The position numbers and the translations under genes were made by a program. The notes beneath the pieces were generated by a model that saw nothing but the letters and a program-made list of their open reading frames with translations, did no database searches and was not told the origin of the DNA. This document shows, one piece after another, positions 2,750-19,624 of a stretch of 64,000 bases of DNA. Every line of letters starts with the position of its first letter. The stretch's first letter is position 1. The stretch lies in the NCBI GenBank assembly GCA_017431225.1, contig JAFRLM010000004.1, forward strand, positions 1 to 64,000, read 5' to 3'. The stretch is from Erysipelotrichaceae bacterium. GTDB taxonomy: Bacteria > Bacillota_I > Bacilli_A > Erysipelotrichales > Erysipelotrichaceae.

Positions 2750-3709
2750 ATGAAAGAGAAATTTAAAAAACAGCTCCTGATCGATGTGCTGACCGTCGTT
2801 GTCGGCTATGTCGCCCTGAGCCTGCTGATGCGTTTCGGTGTGATCAACGACTACGTCAAGGGCATCCTGCTGATGGCCTGCATCAATATCATCTTGACGG
2901 TATCTCTGAATATCACCAGCGGTTTCCTCGGTGAGCTGGCGCTTGGTCATGCCGGTTTTATGGCGGTAGGCGCCTACGCGGCCGCTCTCTTCAGCAAATC
3001 CCTGAGCCTGATCCCGGCAGTCGAATTCCCGCTCGCGATCCTGGTCGGCGGTTTCGCCGCTCTGATCGCCGGCTATATCGTCTCCATTCCGGCTCTGCGT
3101 CTGAAAGGTGACTATCTCGCGATCATCACGCTGGCGGCAGGGGAGATCATCCGTAATATCCTGAAGAACCTCGATATCGTCGGCGGTACCAAGGGTTATA
3201 CCGGCATCCCCGGCTATACGAACTTTGCCTGGGCGTATTTCGTTGCGGTGATCTGCATCTTCGCTTCCAAGTCACTGATCCAGTCACGTCACGGACGTTC
3301 GATCATCTCGATCCGTGAGGATGAGATCGCGGCTGAAGCTTCCGGTGTCGATACCAACCGCTATAAGATCATCGGCTTCATCTTCTCGGCTTTCTTTGCC
3401 GGCGTGGGCGGCGCGCTCTACGCACACTATCTGCGTTTCCTGCAGCCGGGTATCTTCACTCTGAACAAATCGATCGAGATCCTGGTCATGGTCGTCTTAG
3501 GCGGCATGGGTTCGATCCGCGGATCGATCATCTCGGCTGTCATCCTTACGGTACTTCCGGAAATGCTGCGCGGCTTCTCCGATTACCGTATGCTCGTTTA
3601 CTCGCTGGCGCTGATCTTCATGATGCTGGCAAAACATTCCGAAAAGATCCGTCATCTTCTTGCCGGATTCCGGCCTGCCGTAAAACGAAAGGAGACCGCT
3701 CATGAGTAA
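2750..3709 (+). CDS. livM: Branched-chain amino acid ABC transporter permease LivM
   Basis: Second permease subunit, 319 residues with about nine membrane segments. It shows the LivM hallmarks NITSGFLGELALGHAGFMAVGAY in the N-terminal half and LVMVVLGGMGSIRGS in the ATPase-contact loop. Ribosome site GGGAGGTG precedes the ATG. Its 3' end overlaps livG by 8 bp, indicating coupled translation. Confidence 0.95.
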   Translation: MKEKFKKQLLIDVLTVVVGYVALSLLMRFGVINDYVKGILLMACINIILTVSLNITSGFLGELALGHAGFMAVGAYAAALFSKSLSLIPAVEFPLAILVGGFAALIAGYIVSIPALRLKGDYLAIITLAAGEIIRNILKNLDIVGGTKGYTGIPGYTNFAWAYFVAVICIFASKSLIQSRHGRSIISIREDEIAAEASGVDTNRYKIIGFIFSAFFAGVGGALYAHYLRFLQPGIFTLNKSIEILVMVVLGGMGSIRGSIISAVILTVLPEMLRGFSDYRMLVYSLALIFMMLAKHSEKIRHLLAGFRPAVKRKETAHE

Positions 3710-9604: not shown

Positions 9605-11005
9605 ATGACAGAGAAAAAGAAATTCAAACTGGAAGTACCGCACACCTACGTCCTGCTGCTGGTCATGGTGCTTATCTGCGCTGTTCTGGCGCTGATCATC
9701 CCGGCAGGCGCTTATGAGACAGCTGTTGACGCAGCTACCGGTAAAACGATCAAAGTGCCGGGAACCTTCCAGTTCCTTCCGGCAGGCAGCGCTCTTAGTT
9801 TCTTCGATGTGATGAAGGAATTCGTCTTCGGTATGGAGAGCTCTTCCGATATCATCTTCTTTATCTTTATTCTCGGCGGCGCCTTTACGATCGTTCAGGA
9901 CACCGGCGCAATGGCCGGAGGTATCCACGCGATGGTCAAACGCTTCGGCAAACAGCAGAATCTGATCCTGATCCTCTTCATCTTCGTCTTCTCTGTTTTC
10001 GGAGGGACGATCGGTATGGCTGAGGAAGTCATCGTATTCGTACCGCTGGTCGTCATGTTATGCAAGCAGTTCAAGCTTGACCGTATGGTCGCTCTTGCTG
10101 TCTGCATGATCGGTGCCCGTGTCGGTTTTACGACCGGTCTGCTCAATCCGTTTACTGTCGGTGTTGCCCAGGGTATCGCCGGTCTGCCGCTTTACTCCGG
10201 ACTCGGCTTCCGTCTTATCTGGTACGCGCTGATCTTAGTCGTTACCTGCATCTACATCCTGCGCTATGCGAAAAAGATCCAGGACGACCCGACCAAGAGC
10301 ATCATGTACGGCGTTACTGTTGAGGAAGATGAAACTCCGGATGAGGAAGTTGCGCTTACCGGACGTCATATCGCTGTTCTTCTGCTTTTCTTCGCGACGA
10401 TGGTCTTTATGGTCTTCGGCGTCTTCCGGTACGACTGGTACATGGAAGAGATCGCGACGATCTTCCTGATCATGGGTATCCTGGCGGGTATCATCGGCGG
10501 ACTCGGTGCCAACGGTACCGCGAAATCCTTCGTCAAAGGCGCAAAGGATATGACCTATGCCGCTCTGATGGTCGGTATCGCGAAGGCGATCCTGCTCGTT
10601 CTGCAGGACGGCGGTATCATCGATACGATCATCTATTACTGCGCCGGCAGCCTGGAACATCTTCCGAAGATGGTCGCTGCCTGGGGCATGTATATCTTCC
10701 AGCTCGTTCTTAACTTCTTCATTCCTTCCGGTTCCGGACAGGCAGCCGCTACGATGCCGATCATGGCTCCTTTAGCGGACATGCTGGGGATCACTCGTCA
10801 GACAGCCGTTCTCTGCTTCCATTACGGTGACGGATTCACCAACCTGGTCGTCCCGACACTCGGTTCCTTAATGGGCGCGGTCGCTGTCTCCAAGGTTCCG
10901 TTTGACCGTTATCTCAAATGGGTCACGCCTTTATGCGCGATCTGGTGCGTGATCGGTCTGATCTCGGTCACTGTTGCGGTCCTGATCGGCTTCGGACCGT
11001 TCTAA
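9605..11005 (+). CDS. yfcC: YfcC/ArcD-like basic amino acid (or derivative) membrane carrier
   Basis: A 466-residue polytopic membrane protein of the YfcC family, with about twelve hydrophobic segments. Motifs include FGGTIGMAEE and GFTTGLLNPFTVGVAQGIAG in the first half, and FIPSGSGQAAATMPIMAPLAD plus FHYGDGFTNLVVPT in the second, the last two typical of this carrier family. Members are annotated as basic amino acid antiporters or peptide carriers on weak evidence. The lysine riboswitch upstream indicates lysine or a lysine-containing compound as cargo. GGAGGTTAATG gives the start. The M20 peptidase gene follows after 9 bp. Confidence 0.88.
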   Translation: MTEKKKFKLEVPHTYVLLLVMVLICAVLALIIPAGAYETAVDAATGKTIKVPGTFQFLPAGSALSFFDVMKEFVFGMESSSDIIFFIFILGGAFTIVQDTGAMAGGIHAMVKRFGKQQNLILILFIFVFSVFGGTIGMAEEVIVFVPLVVMLCKQFKLDRMVALAVCMIGARVGFTTGLLNPFTVGVAQGIAGLPLYSGLGFRLIWYALILVVTCIYILRYAKKIQDDPTKSIMYGVTVEEDETPDEEVALTGRHIAVLLLFFATMVFMVFGVFRYDWYMEEIATIFLIMGILAGIIGGLGANGTAKSFVKGAKDMTYAALMVGIAKAILLVLQDGGIIDTIIYYCAGSLEHLPKMVAAWGMYIFQLVLNFFIPSGSGQAAATMPIMAPLADMLGITRQTAVLCFHYGDGFTNLVVPTLGSLMGAVAVSKVPFDRYLKWVTPLCAIWCVIGLISVTVAVLIGFGPF

Positions 11006-11014
11006 GGAGAGTAT

Positions 11015-12199
11015 ATGCTGTATACACAGGAACTTGACAGTAAGATCCGGGAATACATCGACGCAAACCGCGATGAGGCGCTTGCCTTCTGGAAGGATCT
11101 TGTCAATCATGAAGGACAGCACGGAGAAAAGGAATATCTTCTGCAGACCGCCGGTTTTCTCAAAACGAAATTCGAGGAACTGGGTCTGAAGGTGGATGTT
11201 CTGGATGCCGGGGAAAACAACGCCCCGGTCGTCACCGCACTCTTGAATCCGGACGCACCCGGGAGACCGGTCGTCTTCAGCGGTCACTATGATACCGTCT
11301 TTGCGGCTTTATCCCGCGGCAAGGATCCCTTCCGTGTCGAAGACGGGATCGTCTACGGTCCCGGCTGCTGCGACATGAAGGGCGGTATCGCGATCGCCTA
11401 CAATGTCGTAAAGACACTGATCCATCTCGGCTTCAGGGAATGCCCGGTACGGCTCTTCTTTGTCGGCGACGAGGAAGTGAACCATATCGGTGGGACCGCG
11501 ATCAGCCTGATCAAGGAATATACGACCGACATCCTGGTCGCCTTCAACATGGAGAACCGCTATGAAAGCGGCGAAGTCTGTGTCGGCAGAAAGGGGGACT
11601 ATGAATATAAAGTCGTTACCCGCGGTGTCGGCTCCCATCCGGGACACGCCTTCGACGCCGGACGCAACGCGATCGAGGAGATGGCATATAAGATCATCGG
11701 TCTGCAGCAGTGTACGCCGAAGGAAAAAGACCGTGATTTCTCCGTCAGTGTGGATGTCATCCGCGGCGGTACAGTCACCAATGTCATCCCCGATTACTGC
11801 GAAGTGATGGTCGATGTCCGTATACGCTCCCTGGATGCTCTCGCGGAAGCGGAGAGAAGGATGAACGAGGTGATCGCGCAGCAACATGTGCCGGATACAA
11901 CGACCGAGCTGATCCTGTGCGACGCGATGCCTCCCTTCGAGAATACACCGCAGGTCAATGAGGCTTACGCTACTCTGAAAGCGATCAGCGACACGATCGG
12001 CAGCAACATCACCGGACCGATACAGGTCGGCGGCGCTTCCGATTCGGCGCATATGCCGGCCGGTACCAAGATCGTCTGCCAGTGCGGTGTTATGGGCGGA
12101 CTAACCCACAATATCGGGGAATATGCCCGTCTTGACAGCCTTTACGAAGGCATACGTCTCTTCACCTTTGCGGTATTGAACCACCAGTTATTTGAATAG
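11015..12199 (+). CDS. M20 family metallopeptidase (carboxypeptidase G2-like)
   Basis: A 394-residue cytoplasmic dinuclear-metal amidohydrolase. The metal site is visible as SGHYDT (His, Asp), GPGCCDMKGG, the catalytic GDEEVN, and the C-terminal histidine in GGLTHNIGEYA. The central dimerisation domain contains GVGSHPGHAFDAGRNAIEEM. Family members cleave C-terminal amino acids, acyl amino acids or dipeptides. Being co-transcribed with a carrier under a lysine riboswitch, it probably releases lysine from an imported conjugate; this is inference. AAGGAG precedes the ATG. Confidence 0.9.
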   Translation: MLYTQELDSKIREYIDANRDEALAFWKDLVNHEGQHGEKEYLLQTAGFLKTKFEELGLKVDVLDAGENNAPVVTALLNPDAPGRPVVFSGHYDTVFAALSRGKDPFRVEDGIVYGPGCCDMKGGIAIAYNVVKTLIHLGFRECPVRLFFVGDEEVNHIGGTAISLIKEYTTDILVAFNMENRYESGEVCVGRKGDYEYKVVTRGVGSHPGHAFDAGRNAIEEMAYKIIGLQQCTPKEKDRDFSVSVDVIRGGTVTNVIPDYCEVMVDVRIRSLDALAEAERRMNEVIAQQHVPDTTTELILCDAMPPFENTPQVNEAYATLKAISDTIGSNITGPIQVGGASDSAHMPAGTKIVCQCGVMGGLTHNIGEYARLDSLYEGIRLFTFAVLNHQLFE

Positions 12200-12204
12200 G
12201 AATG

Positions 12205-12233
12205 AGCCGGTATCCAAAGATGCCGGCTTTTCG
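12205..12233 (+). terminator. Terminator after M20 peptidase gene
   Basis: Stem AGCCGGTATC/GATGCCGGCT, with one mismatch, is followed by TTTTCGTTT. Confidence 0.85.
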
Positions 12234-12255: not shown

Positions 12256-12320
12256 TTAACAACGCCGATAAAAAAAGCGTATCCTAATAGTAGCGTTAAA
12301 AAGAACGGCTTCCTAAGCCG
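12256..12320 (+). promoter_or_regulatory. Leader of GT2-MarR operon: repeats, possible promoter and hairpin
   Basis: TTAACA (12256-12261) and TATCCT (12280-12285), 18 bp apart, could be the promoter. The same stretch holds ACGC (12262), GCGT (12277) and GCGTTAA (12293-12299); TTAACAACGC and GCGTTAA form an interrupted inverted repeat. A CGGCTT/AAGCCG hairpin (12306-12320) follows, 13 bp before the ribosome site. This could be an autoregulatory site for the MarR-like domain encoded downstream. Confidence 0.4.
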
Positions 12321-12346
12321 GTGATAAATGTATAGAGGTGAAGAAG

Positions 12347-13657
12347 ATGCCGAAAGTAAGTGTGATCGTACCTGTTTATAATGCGCAGAATGCGCTGCGC
12401 AGATGTCTTGACAGTATCCTGAATCAGGAATTCAAAGACCTGGAGCTGATCGCCGTCGATGACGGCTCCAAAGACGGTTCACCGGAGATCCTGGATGAAT
12501 ACGCCGCGAAAGACCCGCGTGTCATCGTGGTCCATAAGGAGAATTCCGGTGTTTCCGATACCCGTAATAAGGCGCTTGAACTGGCGCAGGGCGAATATAT
12601 CCAGTTCCTCGATGCCGATGACTGGATCACAGCGGATTCCACCAAATCCCTGGTCCGGGCCATGGAGGAAAACAATGTCGATCTCGTTGTCGCGGACTTC
12701 TACCGGGTCGTCGGTGAGAATCTTTCCCGTAAGGGAAGCATATACGATTCCAAGGTCTTAAGCCGTGAGGAATATGCCCAGTGGATGATGGAATCCCCGG
12801 CGGACTATTATTACGGTGTGATCTGGAACAAGCTCTACTGCCGTTCGATCATCCGTGAATACGGACTGAAGATGGATGAGTCCCTGAGCTTCTGTGAGGA
12901 TTTCGTCTTTAACCTGGAATACATCCTGCACTGCAAGAAGATCTTCCCGCTGCAGATCCCGGTCTATTATTACGTCAAGACAGACGGATCACTGGTCGCG
13001 CAGAATCTTGATCTGGTCAAGATCGTCAAAATGAAGACCAGCATCTATGAATACTATGACAAGTTCTTCCGCAACATCCTCGATGAAAAGGAATATGCGG
13101 GAGAACGCATCAATATCGCCCGTTTCCTGATCGCGGTCGCCAACGACAGCCTCGCGGTGCCGTATATGCCGGGAACGAAGAAGCTTGGCGAGGAGAAAGT
13201 AGCGGTGCCGGTGAATGTGACCGGACGCCCGGATCCGATCGCGGCGACCTATTATATAAATAAACTCTTCGATAATTATCTCAATACGATCGCATTAAAA
13301 TACAATCTCGATCTGAAGGATATCCGTGTATTCTACGCGCTGCGCGAGGCAGGACGGACGAATACTCAGAAAGATCTGACGGATTTTACCGGCTTTACGC
13401 TGCCGCAGGTCGTTTTATCGCTGCAGAAGCTGGCGCTGCATAAGTTCATCACCACCAAATTCGACATGAACGGCGTTACCGCCTCGATCAACGATTCCGC
13501 TGCTGAGCTTTCCAAGGATATCGACGATGCCCTGAAGGATTACGGCAATAACGTCTTTGCGGAATTCTCCGAGGAGGAACGTGCTCGTTTCGAGAAGGAA
13601 TCAGACCGTGTGTACTACCGGATCAAGCAGATCCTGGAAAGTTATGAAGCCCAATAA
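12347..13657 (+). CDS. GT2 glycosyltransferase fused to a MarR-like winged-helix domain
   Basis: A 436-residue protein with two parts. Residues 1 to about 230 are a GT-A family 2 glycosyltransferase: it opens with VSVIVPVYN and has the nucleotide-binding DDGSKDG and the metal-binding DADDW. Residues from about 310 to the end look like a MarR regulator: DIRVFYALREAG, then TQKDLTDFTGFTLPQVVLSLQKL (recognition helix region), a wing, and a final helix FSEEERARFEK. I chose ATG 12347 because AGAGGTG at 12334-12340 sits correctly for it; a GTG at 12338 would lie inside that site. The 3' end overlaps the GH3 gene by 14 bp, so the two act together. No membrane segment is evident. Confidence 0.8.
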   Translation: MPKVSVIVPVYNAQNALRRCLDSILNQEFKDLELIAVDDGSKDGSPEILDEYAAKDPRVIVVHKENSGVSDTRNKALELAQGEYIQFLDADDWITADSTKSLVRAMEENNVDLVVADFYRVVGENLSRKGSIYDSKVLSREEYAQWMMESPADYYYGVIWNKLYCRSIIREYGLKMDESLSFCEDFVFNLEYILHCKKIFPLQIPVYYYVKTDGSLVAQNLDLVKIVKMKTSIYEYYDKFFRNILDEKEYAGERINIARFLIAVANDSLAVPYMPGTKKLGEEKVAVPVNVTGRPDPIAATYYINKLFDNYLNTIALKYNLDLKDIRVFYALREAGRTNTQKDLTDFTGFTLPQVVLSLQKLALHKFITTKFDMNGVTASINDSAAELSKDIDDALKDYGNNVFAEFSEEERARFEKESDRVYYRIKQILESYEAQ

Positions 13658-15989
13658 GAAACTGACAGCCGAAGAGAGCGCGAAGCTTTTTGTCGGCGAG
13701 GATAAATGGCATATCCGCGGTCTTCCGGAAAAAGATATTCCAAGCCTGCGTATGGCGGACGGACCTTCGGGCCTGCGTATCGAGAAGAATAACGCTCTCG
13801 GTTTTCCGGAATCGGTCGAAGCGATCGCTTATCCCTGCGCCTGTGCTCTGGCCTGCAGTTTTGACCCGGAACTGATGAAAAAGTTCGGGAAGATACTGGC
13901 AGAGGAATGTGCGCGCTACGGAGTCGATATCCTTCTGGGACCCGGCGTCAATCACAAACGCAGTCCACTGTGCGGACGCAATTTTGAATACTTCTCCGAG
14001 GACCCGATCCTTTCTTCCGATCTTGCTGCCGCATACATCGAAGGTCTGCAGGAAAACGGGATCGGTGCTTCTTTAAAACATTTTGCCGGGAACTCACGGG
14101 AGACGGCGCGTATGGTCGAGAACAGCGTGATCGATCCGCGCACACTGCAGGAGATCTATCTGCGTCAGTTTGAACGCACAGTGCGTAAAGCGCAGCCCTG
14201 GACAGTTATGGCTGCCTATAACCGTTTAAATGGCAAATACTGCACGGAAAACAAAGAGCTGCTCGAAGATACGCTCCGCAAGAGATGGGGCTATCAGGGG
14301 ATCGTCGTTTCAGACTGGGGCGCACTGAGTGATCCGGCAAGAGCCATCAATGCCGGCACGGATCTCGAGATGCCGGGCGGCGATCACGGGACCTCTGACG
14401 AACTCCTGGAAGCACTGGGAAAAGGGCACCTGAAAGAGGAGACTCTGCAGGAAAGCAGCTGCAGGATGCTGGAGCTTGCGGAAAAGTGTTCGCATAAAAA
14501 GCCTGCTGAATACGATGAGAAAGCCCATTTCGCCTTCGCTGGGGAACTGGCGGAGCGCAGCATCGTTTTACTGAAGAACGAAGGCATGCTGCCGCTTACG
14601 GAGAATGAGAAGATCGCGGTGATCGGAGCTTTTGCGGAACATCCCCGTTTCCAGGGCACCGGCTCCAGCAAAGTCAACTGTCCCCGCCATGACTGTTTCC
14701 TCGACGCTTTGGAAGAAAATGAACTGCCGTATGTATACGCGCAGGGCTATCATATACTGTTTGATCAGGAAGATCCGCTGCTCAGCGAAGAAGCGCTGCG
14801 GATCGCAAAAGAATGCCGGAAGACCATCGTCTTTGCCGGTTTGCCGGACGGGAAGGAAGCGGAAGGCTATGACCGCGAAAACATGCGTCTGCCGAACTGT
14901 CAGAACCGGCTGATCGAGAAACTGTGCGAAGTCAGTGACGAAGTGACTGTCGTACTGCAGTGCGGCGCCCCGGTCGAGATGCCCTGGGCAGAAAAGGTGC
15001 AGGGGATCGTCATGACCTATCTCAGCGGCTGCCGCGGCGGCGGAGCGCTGAAACGTATCCTGTATGGCGAGATCTCTCCCTCAGGAAAACTGGCGGAAAG
15101 TTTCCCACTGAAAGAAGAAGATGTTCCCTGTGTTCGCTATTTCCGCGATGATATCTTCACCTGTACATATCGCGAAGGGATCTACAGCGGTTACCGTTAC
15201 TACAGCTCCTTTGCCAAGCCTGTCCGTTTTCCCTTTGGCTACGGACTGAGCTATACCGAATTCACCTATCAGGATCTGTGTCTGAAAAAAGAAAAGGATG
15301 CTGTTGCGCTTTCTTTGAAAGTCCGGAACAGCGGTACGCGCGAGGGACGCGAGATCGTGCAGATCTATGTCTCGCTGCCGGAAAGCCGGATCGCAAGACC
15401 GCTGCGGGAGCTGAAAGCATTCGCTTCAGTGGAGCTTCTGCCGGGAGAGACAAAGGGAGTTTCGTTAAAGATCGATCTTCAGGATCTCAAATACTATGAT
15501 GTGCTGCTTGAACGTTATGAGCTTGAGGACGGACTGTACCGTTTTGAAGCCGCTGCCTCAAGTGAGGATATCCGCTTATCTTCCGAGATCCGGATAGCAG
15601 GCTATACAAATCCCTGTTCCACGCTGAAAAAGGAATATCTGCAGGAAGAAGAGGGGATGGTCCTGGTCTCGGATGAAGATTTCGCAAAGACGCTGGGAGC
15701 ACCGCTGCAAAAGGAGGAACGCAAACGTTTCACCCGTGATTCGATCGTCTTCGAACTTGGTTCCAGACATCTTGGTCGAAGGATCCATCATTACATCGAC
15801 CGTTATCTGCGCCGGAAAAAGCTGCACGATGTTTCCCGGTCGATGGTATTCGAATCGCCGCTGCGCATGATCCTGATGGCCAGCGACCGCTTTACCTGGA
15901 AGACTGTCGATGCGATCGCCGATCTCTTCAACGGACACTTCCTGGGGATCATCCGCCGTCTTCTGCGATCACTAAAAAAGAAGAATTAA
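13644..15989 (+). CDS. Glycoside hydrolase family 3 (beta-glucosidase-like)
   Basis: A 781-residue cytoplasmic enzyme (no signal peptide). The N-terminal TIM-barrel domain has MADGPSGLR, GPGVNHKRSPLCGRNFEYFSED, KHFAGN and the nucleophile aspartate in VVSDWGA. The C-terminal alpha/beta sandwich has GTGSSKVN and SGCRGGGA. A fibronectin-III-like domain (RNSGTREGREIVQIYV) follows. About 120 further residues, with a basic last helix, form a tail that I recall from other Firmicutes GH3 enzymes. The start was set at ATG 13644 (GGAAAG upstream); the longer frame from 13557 lies within the glycosyltransferase. Substrate probably a beta-glucoside or beta-xyloside; undetermined. Confidence 0.92.
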   Translation: MKPNKKLTAEESAKLFVGEDKWHIRGLPEKDIPSLRMADGPSGLRIEKNNALGFPESVEAIAYPCACALACSFDPELMKKFGKILAEECARYGVDILLGPGVNHKRSPLCGRNFEYFSEDPILSSDLAAAYIEGLQENGIGASLKHFAGNSRETARMVENSVIDPRTLQEIYLRQFERTVRKAQPWTVMAAYNRLNGKYCTENKELLEDTLRKRWGYQGIVVSDWGALSDPARAINAGTDLEMPGGDHGTSDELLEALGKGHLKEETLQESSCRMLELAEKCSHKKPAEYDEKAHFAFAGELAERSIVLLKNEGMLPLTENEKIAVIGAFAEHPRFQGTGSSKVNCPRHDCFLDALEENELPYVYAQGYHILFDQEDPLLSEEALRIAKECRKTIVFAGLPDGKEAEGYDRENMRLPNCQNRLIEKLCEVSDEVTVVLQCGAPVEMPWAEKVQGIVMTYLSGCRGGGALKRILYGEISPSGKLAESFPLKEEDVPCVRYFRDDIFTCTYREGIYSGYRYYSSFAKPVRFPFGYGLSYTEFTYQDLCLKKEKDAVALSLKVRNSGTREGREIVQIYVSLPESRIARPLRELKAFASVELLPGETKGVSLKIDLQDLKYYDVLLERYELEDGLYRFEAAASSEDIRLSSEIRIAGYTNPCSTLKKEYLQEEEGMVLVSDEDFAKTLGAPLQKEERKRFTRDSIVFELGSRHLGRRIHHYIDRYLRRKKLHDVSRSMVFESPLRMILMASDRFTWKTVDAIADLFNGHFLGIIRRLLRSLKKKN

Positions 15990-15991
15990 TT

Positions 15992-16030
15992 AAAAAGACT
16001 CCGCCTTCAGATCGAAACGGAGTCTATTTT
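15992..16030. terminator. Bidirectional terminator between GH3 and SNF2 genes
   Basis: Stem AGACTCCG/CGGAGTCT (15996-16003 and 16018-16025) is flanked by a run of As on the left and ATTTTG on the right. It can serve both convergent genes, better on the minus strand. Confidence 0.8.
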
Positions 16031-16033
16031 GTA

Positions 16034-19000
16034 TTATCCCAGCAGGTCAAGCAGCTCCTCGCGGCTGAGCGATGTGATCGATGTATGTTCCTCGGAGATG
16101 ATCGAATCTGCCAGATCCTTTTTACTGGACTGGAGCTCGAGGATCTTTTCCTCGATCGTATCCTTGGCGATCAGCTTGAAAACGCTGACGATCTTTTCCT
16201 GACCGATCCGGTGGGCACGGTCCGTTGCTTGGTTCTGGGCAGCTACGTTCCACCAGGGATCGTAATGGATCACGATATCGGCGCCGGTCAGATTCAGTCC
16301 GGTGCCGCCGGCTTTCAGAGAGATCAGAAAGAGCGGTGTATCATCTTCGTTGAACTGATGGACGAGGCGCAGACGTTCTTCCTTGGGTGTGGAACCGGTG
16401 ATCTTGTAGTAGGAGAGTGAACGTTCCTGCAGCTCCTTTTCCAGGATCTCCAGCATGCTGGTGAACTGGGAGAAGAGCAGGATCTTATGACCGCCGTCGA
16501 TCGCGGATTCGATCAGCTGCATGCAGGCCTCTTTCTTTGCGCTCTCACCATGATAATTCTCATACAGCAGAGACGGGTCACAGCAGATCTGGCGTATTTT
16601 CGTCAGTTCCGCAAGGATACGGATCTTCGCGCTGCCGCTGTTTTCATCCAGCATATTGACCATCTGCTTCATACGCAGCAGCTGTCCGTCATAGACCTGC
16701 TGCTGGTCTTTGTCGAAACGGGCGTAACGGACTTCCTCGATCTTGTCCGGGAGTTCTTTCAAAACATCTTTCTTGCTGCGGCGCAGGATGAAGGGGCTGA
16801 CCATCTGACGCAGCCTTTCGGTCTGTCCTTCATCGTGATCGCGCACGATGTAATTCTCAAATTCATTCCGGAACCGGTCATAGCTGTAAAGGAAGCCCGG
16901 CATCAGGAAATCAAAGATCGACCATAACTCGCTGAGACGATTCTCGATGGGGGTGCCGGTCAGAACGAAACGGTGGGCGCTCTTGATGATCTTGACTGCT
17001 TTGGAGATGACAGCTTTTGGATTCTTGATATACTGGCCTTCATCCAGGACCTCATAGGAGAATACCTTGTCCTCATAGAGATCGATATCGCGTTTGAGCA
17101 GGTCATAGGAAGTGATCAGGACATCATAGTCTTTTCGTGCCAGGATCTTTTTGCGTTCGCCGACACTTCCGGCCATGACGGCGGTCTGCAGCTGCGGCGC
17201 AAAACGTCTGCATTCCTCCTCCCAGTTATAGACCAGTGAAGCCGGACATACGATCAGTGCCGGCAGGATGAGCTCATACTCTTCTTTCCGGGCAAGGAGA
17301 AGGGTGATCAGCTGCAGGGTCTTGCCGAGGCCCATATCGTCCGCCAGGATCCCGCCGAAATTCAGATCGCTGAGCGTATGCAGCCACTGATATCCGTATA
17401 CCTGGTAGCCGCGGAGAACACCGTTCAAGGAAGCAGGCACCTCATATTCGGAATCTTTGACGGAATTGAAATTCCGGATCAGCCCGCGGAAGCTGCGGTC
17501 ACGGTCAGCCGCGATCTCCTCATGTTCCTCAAGGAGACGGTTGATATAAAGCGAACGGTATACCGGCAGGTGCATCTTGCCTTTGACGAAATCCTGCAGG
17601 GAAATATTCAGTGTATCAAGCAGCTGCCCGATCGTTTCAAGAGATTCAGCGTTTTCAAAAGAAACGAACTCGCCGTTTTTCAGCTTATGGTATTTTTTGC
17701 GCCGGCGGTAACTCTGCAAAAGCGACAGCAGTTCCTCGCTGTCCATTTCGGAAGAGAGGATATCAAGATCAAGCAGATCGTGATCGACGGATAAGCCGAC
17801 AGAGAAAACAGGCGGTTTGCGGATCTTCAGGCGCTCAAAGGCGTCGCTTGTATGGACATCGCCGTAAGTCATCAGCTCTTCGACTCCTTCGTTGAGCAGA
17901 TCGTACAGTTTGTCATCGTCCTTTTCTTCGACAAAGCATCCGCCTTCTTCGTCGTAGAAGGGGAAATACTTTTTAACACAGTTCAGAACAGTTGTCTCCG
18001 CCGGGACATCGCGGTATCTTTCCAGCGGAAAATCCTCATCCCGCAGTTCTTTCAAGGGCAGTTCTGTTTCGTCATAACGGATCGTTCCCCGGCAGAGGAC
18101 CTGTTCATCCTCGCGGTCCAGATAAAAGGAGAATTCCGCTTCCGGCGTCAGCATGGACGCGATCGTTTCCGCTTCGTTTTCCGTAACTGTGATCTGCGGA
18201 TCGTTTTTCAGCTGCGGCAGGATCCGGTAATAGAACTCGGTCAGATGTTTTTCGCCGATCACCGTGGAATGCCTGTTTTTATCAGCGGTGTTCAGAAGCG
18301 GTGCCAGCGTCTGCTCGCTCTTTTCCGACAGACGGGCGAGAACACCGTCTTTCAGATAATAATGGTGGTGTGCCCCGTAAAACATACGCGGCGTATCGTA
18401 ATCGAGCACGATCCCCTTGACTTCTCCCTGTTCGGTCCGGTAGGGGCTGACCGAAAGCGAAAGCTTCAGATCCTGTTCACCGATCTTCAGCCGGTGGATG
18501 CGCTTGTCGGTACAGTTGTAGTCGACTGACTTCCCGCATGTCAGATCATAAAAATCATCCAGCGCTTTTCCGCTCAGTTCGATCGTGTTCTTCAGGGAGA
18601 GATCAAGGTCATAGGTGTGGCGGAAGTGCTTTGTCCAGGCATCTGCCTCGGAGACACGTTCTTCGATGAAACGATAATAGGGCAGAGAGGGATCGCTGAA
18701 ATCCTGTCTGCGGAAATAGAGATCATGGTCAACACCGAGGCTCATCGTTTCCTTTTTCCAGTAAAGGGAGACGAGCGAGCTGAGGTTCTTCACGACATAA
18801 AGCTTATCGATGCCGATGCGGAAGGAGAGGGATAATTCCTCGCCCCGGTCCGTGATGCGTGGTTCAAGCTGGATCACTTTGGCGGTCTTTCCGTTATCAT
18901 CTTCACTGTTCAGGGTAAGAAGACGCTGTCTGGCAAAACGGTCCAGCAGAGCCTGGCCGTTCTGGCTCGTCTCATCCCCCGGATCGTAGCGGCGCACATA

Positions 19001-19624
19001 GTCGCCGGTCTCCAGCATCAGTGCCAGCATGTGTTCACAGACATAGCCGTGGTATCTGTCGATGTAGTTGCCGCAGACCGAACAGTGTCCGTTTTCAAGC
19101 TCCTGCGGACGGAAGTTCAGGAAAGTGCGGCCGCCGTAATAGGTCTCTTCCTGATCTGCTTCAACAGAGAGGCAGAGAGTATCGCTGTTGAAAGGATAAT
19201 CCGTTTCGATCTTTCCGATCGTCATCCCGTGCTCTTCACGGATCCTCTGCGCTTCCGCGAGGATCCTCTGTTCGATCCGCATCGGTTCCGCGGCACGGTA
19301 AAGATCGAAATAACAGTTTTCAAAATCCTCTCTTTTGAAAGGATTCACGTAATGTTTGCTCGCTTTTTCCTTTTCTTTTTCCCATTGGAAAAGCGTGGCG
19401 GCCATGTGCTTGCAGTTGTTGCCCTGGCTCGCGAACTGACAGTCACAGTTCATGTGGTAGTCGCCGAAAACATCCTTGCGGATACGCACATGATAGCGGT
19501 GGCTGCCGACAACGATCGCGCTGCAGGAATCCGCGTCGTACTGCAGATTCACGACAAAACCGCGGTAGAAATAATCTCTGCCGCGCTGCAGGATCGTATT
19601 GTAGAAAAGATTCTGCCAGCTCAT
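16034..19624 (-). CDS. SWIM zinc-finger SNF2-family ATPase
   Basis: A 1196-residue double-stranded DNA translocase-like protein. The N-terminus has a SWIM zinc finger (CDC...CKH, about residues 58-73). The middle (about 80-700) is a long poorly conserved region typical of this family. The C-terminus is an SNF2 motor: motif I DDMGLGKT, motif II DEGQ, and the helicase C half with SLKAGGTGLNL and DRAHRIGQ. Relatives are common in Firmicutes and are thought to act on transcription or chromosome structure, but the biological role is unknown. A TGA-TAAAAT -10 box ends eight bases before the ATG, with no ribosome site. Confidence 0.93.
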   Translation of the reverse strand: MSWQNLFYNTILQRGRDYFYRGFVVNLQYDADSCSAIVVGSHRYHVRIRKDVFGDYHMNCDCQFASQGNNCKHMAATLFQWEKEKEKASKHYVNPFKREDFENCYFDLYRAAEPMRIEQRILAEAQRIREEHGMTIGKIETDYPFNSDTLCLSVEADQEETYYGGRTFLNFRPQELENGHCSVCGNYIDRYHGYVCEHMLALMLETGDYVRRYDPGDETSQNGQALLDRFARQRLLTLNSEDDNGKTAKVIQLEPRITDRGEELSLSFRIGIDKLYVVKNLSSLVSLYWKKETMSLGVDHDLYFRRQDFSDPSLPYYRFIEERVSEADAWTKHFRHTYDLDLSLKNTIELSGKALDDFYDLTCGKSVDYNCTDKRIHRLKIGEQDLKLSLSVSPYRTEQGEVKGIVLDYDTPRMFYGAHHHYYLKDGVLARLSEKSEQTLAPLLNTADKNRHSTVIGEKHLTEFYYRILPQLKNDPQITVTENEAETIASMLTPEAEFSFYLDREDEQVLCRGTIRYDETELPLKELRDEDFPLERYRDVPAETTVLNCVKKYFPFYDEEGGCFVEEKDDDKLYDLLNEGVEELMTYGDVHTSDAFERLKIRKPPVFSVGLSVDHDLLDLDILSSEMDSEELLSLLQSYRRRKKYHKLKNGEFVSFENAESLETIGQLLDTLNISLQDFVKGKMHLPVYRSLYINRLLEEHEEIAADRDRSFRGLIRNFNSVKDSEYEVPASLNGVLRGYQVYGYQWLHTLSDLNFGGILADDMGLGKTLQLITLLLARKEEYELILPALIVCPASLVYNWEEECRRFAPQLQTAVMAGSVGERKKILARKDYDVLITSYDLLKRDIDLYEDKVFSYEVLDEGQYIKNPKAVISKAVKIIKSAHRFVLTGTPIENRLSELWSIFDFLMPGFLYSYDRFRNEFENYIVRDHDEGQTERLRQMVSPFILRRSKKDVLKELPDKIEEVRYARFDKDQQQVYDGQLLRMKQMVNMLDENSGSAKIRILAELTKIRQICCDPSLLYENYHGESAKKEACMQLIESAIDGGHKILLFSQFTSMLEILEKELQERSLSYYKITGSTPKEERLRLVHQFNEDDTPLFLISLKAGGTGLNLTGADIVIHYDPWWNVAAQNQATDRAHRIGQEKIVSVFKLIAKDTIEEKILELQSSKKDLADSIISEEHTSITSLSREELLDLLG

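Follow-up and report, generated by a model that had tools for sequence, protein, structure and literature searches.

Enzymes that carry a helix-turn-helix (HTH) domain in the same chain are known, among them BirA, which has a winged helix, and the MarR–GNAT proteins. The soluble family 2 glycosyltransferases (GT2) of wall polymers, TarS, TarP, RmlT and CgT, join a GT-A catalytic domain to an extra C-terminal part, which drives oligomerization or acceptor binding. In the transmembrane glycosylation systems GtrA/GtrB and CsbB–GtcA–YfhO a GT2 stands beside a GtrA-type protein. GmaR of Listeria holds in one chain a GT2, tetratricopeptide repeats and a domain, about 290 residues long, for binding the repressor MogR (PMC3150276). 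The stretch of DNA analysed here (the window) comprises 64,000 nucleotides of an Erysipelotrichaceae genome (contig JAFRLM010000004.1, positions 1 to 64,000). It encodes a protein that resembles each of these systems in part, a GT2 fused to a MarR-type winged helix, and the gene for this fusion overlaps that of a family 3 glycoside hydrolase (GH3).

How does the fusion compare with the described systems? It has the whole fold of the MarR regulators (PF12802/PF01047; 3nrv, 3s2w, 3bpx, SCO3205) and significant sequence homology to them, but its MarR part sits behind a GT2, lacks in the Erysipelotrichaceae branch the wing motif that supplies the minor-groove arginine, and has a poorly conserved reading head. 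An eroded head, a different enzyme and the C-terminal position of the HTH likewise set it apart from the MarR–GNAT and BirA types. With TarS, TarP, RmlT and CgT it shares the GT-A domain, solubility and an extra C-terminal part, although theirs is not a MarR fold. Nor does GmaR contain one; the fusion matches the GmaR structure 22ao over residues 2–110 only, and GmaR shows that a GT2 can be joined to a part with a role in gene regulation, though one of other fold and mechanism. Unlike the GtrA/GtrB and CsbB–GtcA–YfhO systems, the GT2 of the fusion has no evident membrane segment, no GtrA gene lies beside it in the window, and no GT-C partner was seen. The explanation that we prefer, and consider moderately probable, is that the fusion is an active GT2 in which the MarR fold is used for dimerization or allostery rather than DNA binding, and that it acts with the GH3 in envelope-glycan metabolism.

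Is the glycosyltransferase intact? The gene (12347–13657, plus strand; ATG at 12347, stop at 13655–13657) encodes 436 residues plus stop in a single frame. Residues 1–222 (12347–13012, plus strand) form the catalytic domain, a GT-A fold assigned from PF00535, Foldseek and invariant aspartates in the DDGS and DADD motifs; residues 223–290 (13013–13216, plus strand) form a linker that is helical in the AlphaFold secondary structure. The GT2 that had been predicted in this frame is indeed there. PF00535 matches the N-terminal part with an E-value of 9.6e-41 (Pfam), both DDGSKDG and DADDW are present, and D39, D89, D91 and D92 are unchanged across 23 relatives. Among sequence relatives of the domain in the Protein Data Bank (PDB) are 5hea and 3bcv, and Foldseek aligns it with GT2 enzymes, among them CgT, TarS, TarP and RmlT; with the full-length protein Foldseek gave useful matches for the GT2 part only. 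The computed mean entropy is 1.15 bits in the GT part, 1.60 bits in the linker, a moderate conservation, and 3.26 bits in the wing. That the catalytic residues never vary and that the GT part is under strong constraint both speak for an active enzyme, which by its sequence would be catalytically intact and soluble.

The C-terminal domain (residues 297–436; 13235–13654, plus strand) is homologous to MarR over the entire fold. Taken alone, the window sequence falls under the Pfam cut-off for MarR_2 (E 0.02), and searching the PDB with only its C-terminal part gave no match. With a profile of the 23 relatives, however, the top PDB matches are all MarR proteins, the best being 3nrv (E 1.5e-7, positions 18–139 of 149), and 16 of the 23 relatives match MarR_2 in Pfam, at best with 8.9e-7. 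Modelled separately by AlphaFold (pLDDT 92.7), the domain has the MarR topology: α1 at 297–318, α2 at 323–334, β1/α3 at 338–348, α4 at 352–364, β2–wing–β3 at 368–381, α5 at 383–403 and α6 at 409–435. All 50 of the best matches listed by Foldseek for this model are MarR-type regulators, with TM scores up to about 0.8. The original prediction of a winged helix of this type thus holds over the whole fold. The fusions conserve D346 and the core of the HTH, and their helices α1, α5 and α6, by which MarR proteins dimerize, retain their hydrophobic pattern.

If the fold is that of MarR, does the domain still read DNA? In the structure of SCO3205 with DNA, the wing pair Asp96/Arg98 places an arginine in the minor groove (PMC3737563). 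We scored this wing motif as D..(D/N/E)(R/K)(R/K) in 39 Erysipelotrichaceae fusions and in 16 MarRs of related genomes. It occurs in none of the 39 fusions, the window protein included, as against 13 of the 16 ordinary MarRs. Lysines and arginines in the HTH plus wing number 4.95 in these fusions and 9.0 in the MarRs; the difference in net charge between the two groups is weak by itself (p 0.05). The reading head also changes fast. Between this genome and a related one (G003) the head (335–382) is 54% identical, compared with 82% for the GT2 and 76% for helices α1, α5 and α6, whereas five pairs of true MarR orthologues from the same two genomes keep 85–94% identity. Over 30 non-overlapping pairs, which are not all independent since some loci represent one genome from two collections, identity is 81% in the GT2, 55% in the dimer helices and 47% in α4 plus wing (α4 plus wing versus helices, Wilcoxon p 0.0003); when the entire HTH is included with the wing, identity differs little from that of the helices (p 0.03). 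For the window protein, then, the proposal of a DNA-binding regulator that senses its product finds no support: the wing motif is missing and the head evolves faster than the rest. On this comparison of sequences, the MarR fold of the Erysipelotrichaceae branch most likely no longer recognizes specific DNA sequences.

What role might be played by the GH3? Its gene (13644–15989, plus strand) encodes 781 residues and starts at an ATG at 13644 inside the GT gene, an overlap of 14 bp, as had been noted at the outset. Matches to PF00933, PF01915 and PF14310 (Fn3-like) confirm the family; the nearest NCBIfam model, NF041610 (exo-alpha-(1->6)-L-arabinopyranosidase), scores 669 bits against a cut-off of 1300, so that the protein is not a member. 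It had been called cytoplasmic, and inspection of its N-terminus by eye revealed no signal peptide. The coupling of the two genes is real within the Erysipelotrichaceae: a GH3 follows the fusion immediately in 22 of 41 loci, usually with an overlap of 4–14 bp, while farther neighbours vary. This linkage is clustered on the tree of 39 GT proteins, with about seven gains or losses, and the identities of GT and GH3 correlate (Spearman 0.68, 210 non-independent pairs). Outside the family a GH3 is hardly ever adjacent, the neighbour counts there being lower bounds since simple gene calling went wrong in part of the GC-rich loci. The GH3 is thus a lineage-specific partner, and regulation of that glycosidase, once suggested for the fusion, cannot be its general role. 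In 8 of the 41 loci the fusion is paired with a GtrA-type membrane protein (PF04138; matches of 1.2e-7 and 3.9e-5 in the two copies examined), which in several loci is encoded directly upstream of the fusion, with or without a GH3.

From these data we infer dimerization, allosteric control and an envelope-glycan substrate. The permanently fused MarR fold would be a dimerization module, a ligand-sensing (allosteric) module or both, pairing two GT2 units and perhaps tuning them. Retention of the hydrophobic pattern in the dimer helices together with loss of the reading head fits such a role; the nearest whole-protein structures are soluble wall-polymer GT2 enzymes with accessory C-terminal parts. 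The fusion would be co-translated with the cytoplasmic GH3 and, in some relatives, also with the GtrA-type protein. The association with GtrA hints at a glycan connected with the membrane, of the kind handled by known GtrA/GtcA systems; the GT–GH3 unit probably makes a cell-envelope glycan or its lipid-linked precursor at the inner face of the membrane and trims or recycles it.

Several points weigh against this explanation. In clostridial relatives the wing is long and basic and the charge of the head resembles that in MarRs, so binding of DNA or of a polyanion may persist there. Three of the 16 reference MarRs also fail the regular expression for the wing motif, and the MarR family is large, with some members that bind DNA without the full motif. 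The fast-changing head could also reflect changing operators, but the true MarRs of the same genomes show no such change. Finally, the roughly seven changes of the GH3 link on the tree and its near-absence from other families indicate that the GT works without a GH3.

Might the fusion nevertheless be a trigger enzyme, that is, a glycosyltransferase whose MarR domain still binds DNA and which controls its own operon, or other genes for glycans, in response to its glycan product or substrate? The complete fold, the conserved D346 and HTH core, the basic wings of the clostridial members and the precedents of BirA and MarR–GNAT speak for it. We nevertheless think it unlikely. In the Erysipelotrichaceae branch the wing motif is absent and the basicity of the head is halved; the head evolves fastest, the opposite of what the five true MarRs do in the same genomes; and many relatives of the gene belong to other operons, where they follow closely on the preceding gene. 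That a widespread family of GTs binds DNA through a MarR domain of its own is similarly doubtful, and is most plausible for the clostridial members with a basic wing; if true, it would couple envelope-glycan synthesis directly to transcription.

The leader of the gene bears on the same question. A hairpin that resembles an intrinsic terminator and belongs to the M20 peptidase gene upstream (12204–12229, plus strand; an 11-pair stem followed by a T-rich tail) sets the GT–GH3 pair off as its own unit. Behind it a pattern scan predicts a sigma-70-like promoter (12256–12285, plus strand), consisting of TTAACA (12256–12261), 18 nucleotides and TATCCT (12280–12285), with 9 of 12 matches. The repeats TTAACAACGC / GCGTTAA, earlier proposed as an operator, are present and overlap this promoter. 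Their gapped pattern occurs once in the 64 kb against 0.02 expected, a pattern picked after the match was seen. In the closest relative (G002, protein 96% identical) both promoter hexamers are identical, but the half TTAACAACGC reads TTAACAACAGC, and the inverted repeat is lost both there and in G003. No palindrome or half-site is shared upstream of 37 relatives in the near-gene regions searched, a distant operator not being sought. Palindromes are in surplus in these regions (58 versus 22.7 in shuffles); as they have no common half-site, we take them for terminator hairpins. The repeats, then, are real, and a conserved operator at 12256–12299 is rejected. The leader RNA has no unusual structure (z −0.41) and no match in Rfam.

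An improbable alternative, in our judgement, is that the winged helix binds the acceptor, be it a peptide, a protein or a polyanionic polymer (teichoic acid, for instance), and delivers it to the GT2 active site. The folds nearest to that of the complete protein, those of TarS, TarP and RmlT, belong to teichoic-acid GTs that bind an acceptor, and both the fast-changing wing and the basic wings of clostridial members could track a changing acceptor. There is a parallel in the winged-helix RiPP recognition elements, which bind peptides for their enzymes (PMC12710340). Against recruitment, the domain is a full MarR fold and not a RiPP recognition element, and the neighbourhoods inside and outside the Erysipelotrichaceae revealed no conserved peptide-like neighbour gene.

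In the same neighbourhoods no partner MarR gene is consistently adjacent to the fusion, which counts against an anti-repressor of the GmaR kind, a GT that would control transcription by binding another regulator, for example as a heterodimer with a true MarR, instead of DNA. A dominant-negative partner of this sort could well have intact dimer helices and an eroded head, and Listeria GmaR is itself a GT2 whose C-terminal domain binds a repressor (PMC3150276). However, the C-terminal part of the fusion has no sequence relation to GmaR, the match to 22ao being confined to the GT2, and we hold this mechanism to be very improbable. Least tenable of all is an artefact, a frameshift or misassembly joining two genes, for which nothing beyond the oddity of the architecture speaks and which is ruled out by the single frame that GT2 and MarR share in 79 of the 80 best relatives (the remaining one is truncated by a contig end) and by full-length copies, 96, 76, 53, 47 and 44% identical, in separate assemblies within the Erysipelotrichaceae.

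The 80 best relatives were taken from named genomes, and their domain content was recounted from raw frames because an automatic gene caller chose wrong frames in about 16 GC-rich loci. They come from Erysipelotrichaceae (Solobacterium and others), Lachnospiraceae, Oscillospiraceae, Bifidobacteriaceae and Olsenella. Conserved in one frame across several families, the fusion is old and no sequencing error. When the C-terminal part was searched against 273 genomes, its matches lay mostly inside frames of 420–470 residues; most of the weak leftover matches were in frames of about 150 residues, as long as a free MarR regulator. No close plasmid copy covers 80% of the protein, and PADLOC gave no match worth the name that would place the fusion in a defence system. 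Fusions of Lachnospiraceae and Oscillospiraceae (loci L133–L182) carry a long K/R-rich wing insert, unlike those of Erysipelotrichaceae, and their domain is possibly of different function.

A transcription-factor fold joined to a GT2 has thus been retained in many gut Firmicutes and some Actinobacteria, and a plain annotation as glycosyltransferase conceals it. We found no papers on GT–MarR fusions in a search that left aside subscription journals and domain databases, so that the architecture may be catalogued elsewhere. The pairing of GT2 and GH3 in the Erysipelotrichaceae suggests that these poorly studied gut bacteria possess a small pathway that makes and trims a glycan.

The genome that contains the window also has a separate GT2 gene of 354 residues (L002; G000:C20:109166–109837, minus strand) and, about 220 bp downstream of it, a free MarR gene with a full wing motif (L003; G000:C20:108160–108504, minus strand). 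The arrangement recalls the fusion, but we reject it as a split version: L002 is a distant paralogous GT2 (31% identity) and L003 an ordinary MarR. A second group of fusions, without GH3 (L079, L081, L085, L087, L090 and L093), lies in a syntenic block ahead of HisZ-, HisG- and HisD-like genes, and in some of them a LarA-like or SerA-like gene precedes the fusion (all these names were given by eye). At L006 (about 2816–3142 of the locus, in G001) the gene after the fusion is not a GH3 but encodes a small protein in which an LLGEDGK-type motif is repeated.

In the window itself, a DcuC-family carrier (PF03606) followed by the M20 peptidase, likely a transport-and-hydrolysis pair, occupies positions 9605–12199 upstream of the GT–GH3 unit. 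On the other side, an SNF2 helicase with SWIM and SNF2_assoc domains (16034–19624) is convergent with the GH3. Between the two convergent genes lies a hairpin (15996–16025) with an 11-pair stem and a T tail on the minus strand, which is likely a shared terminator.

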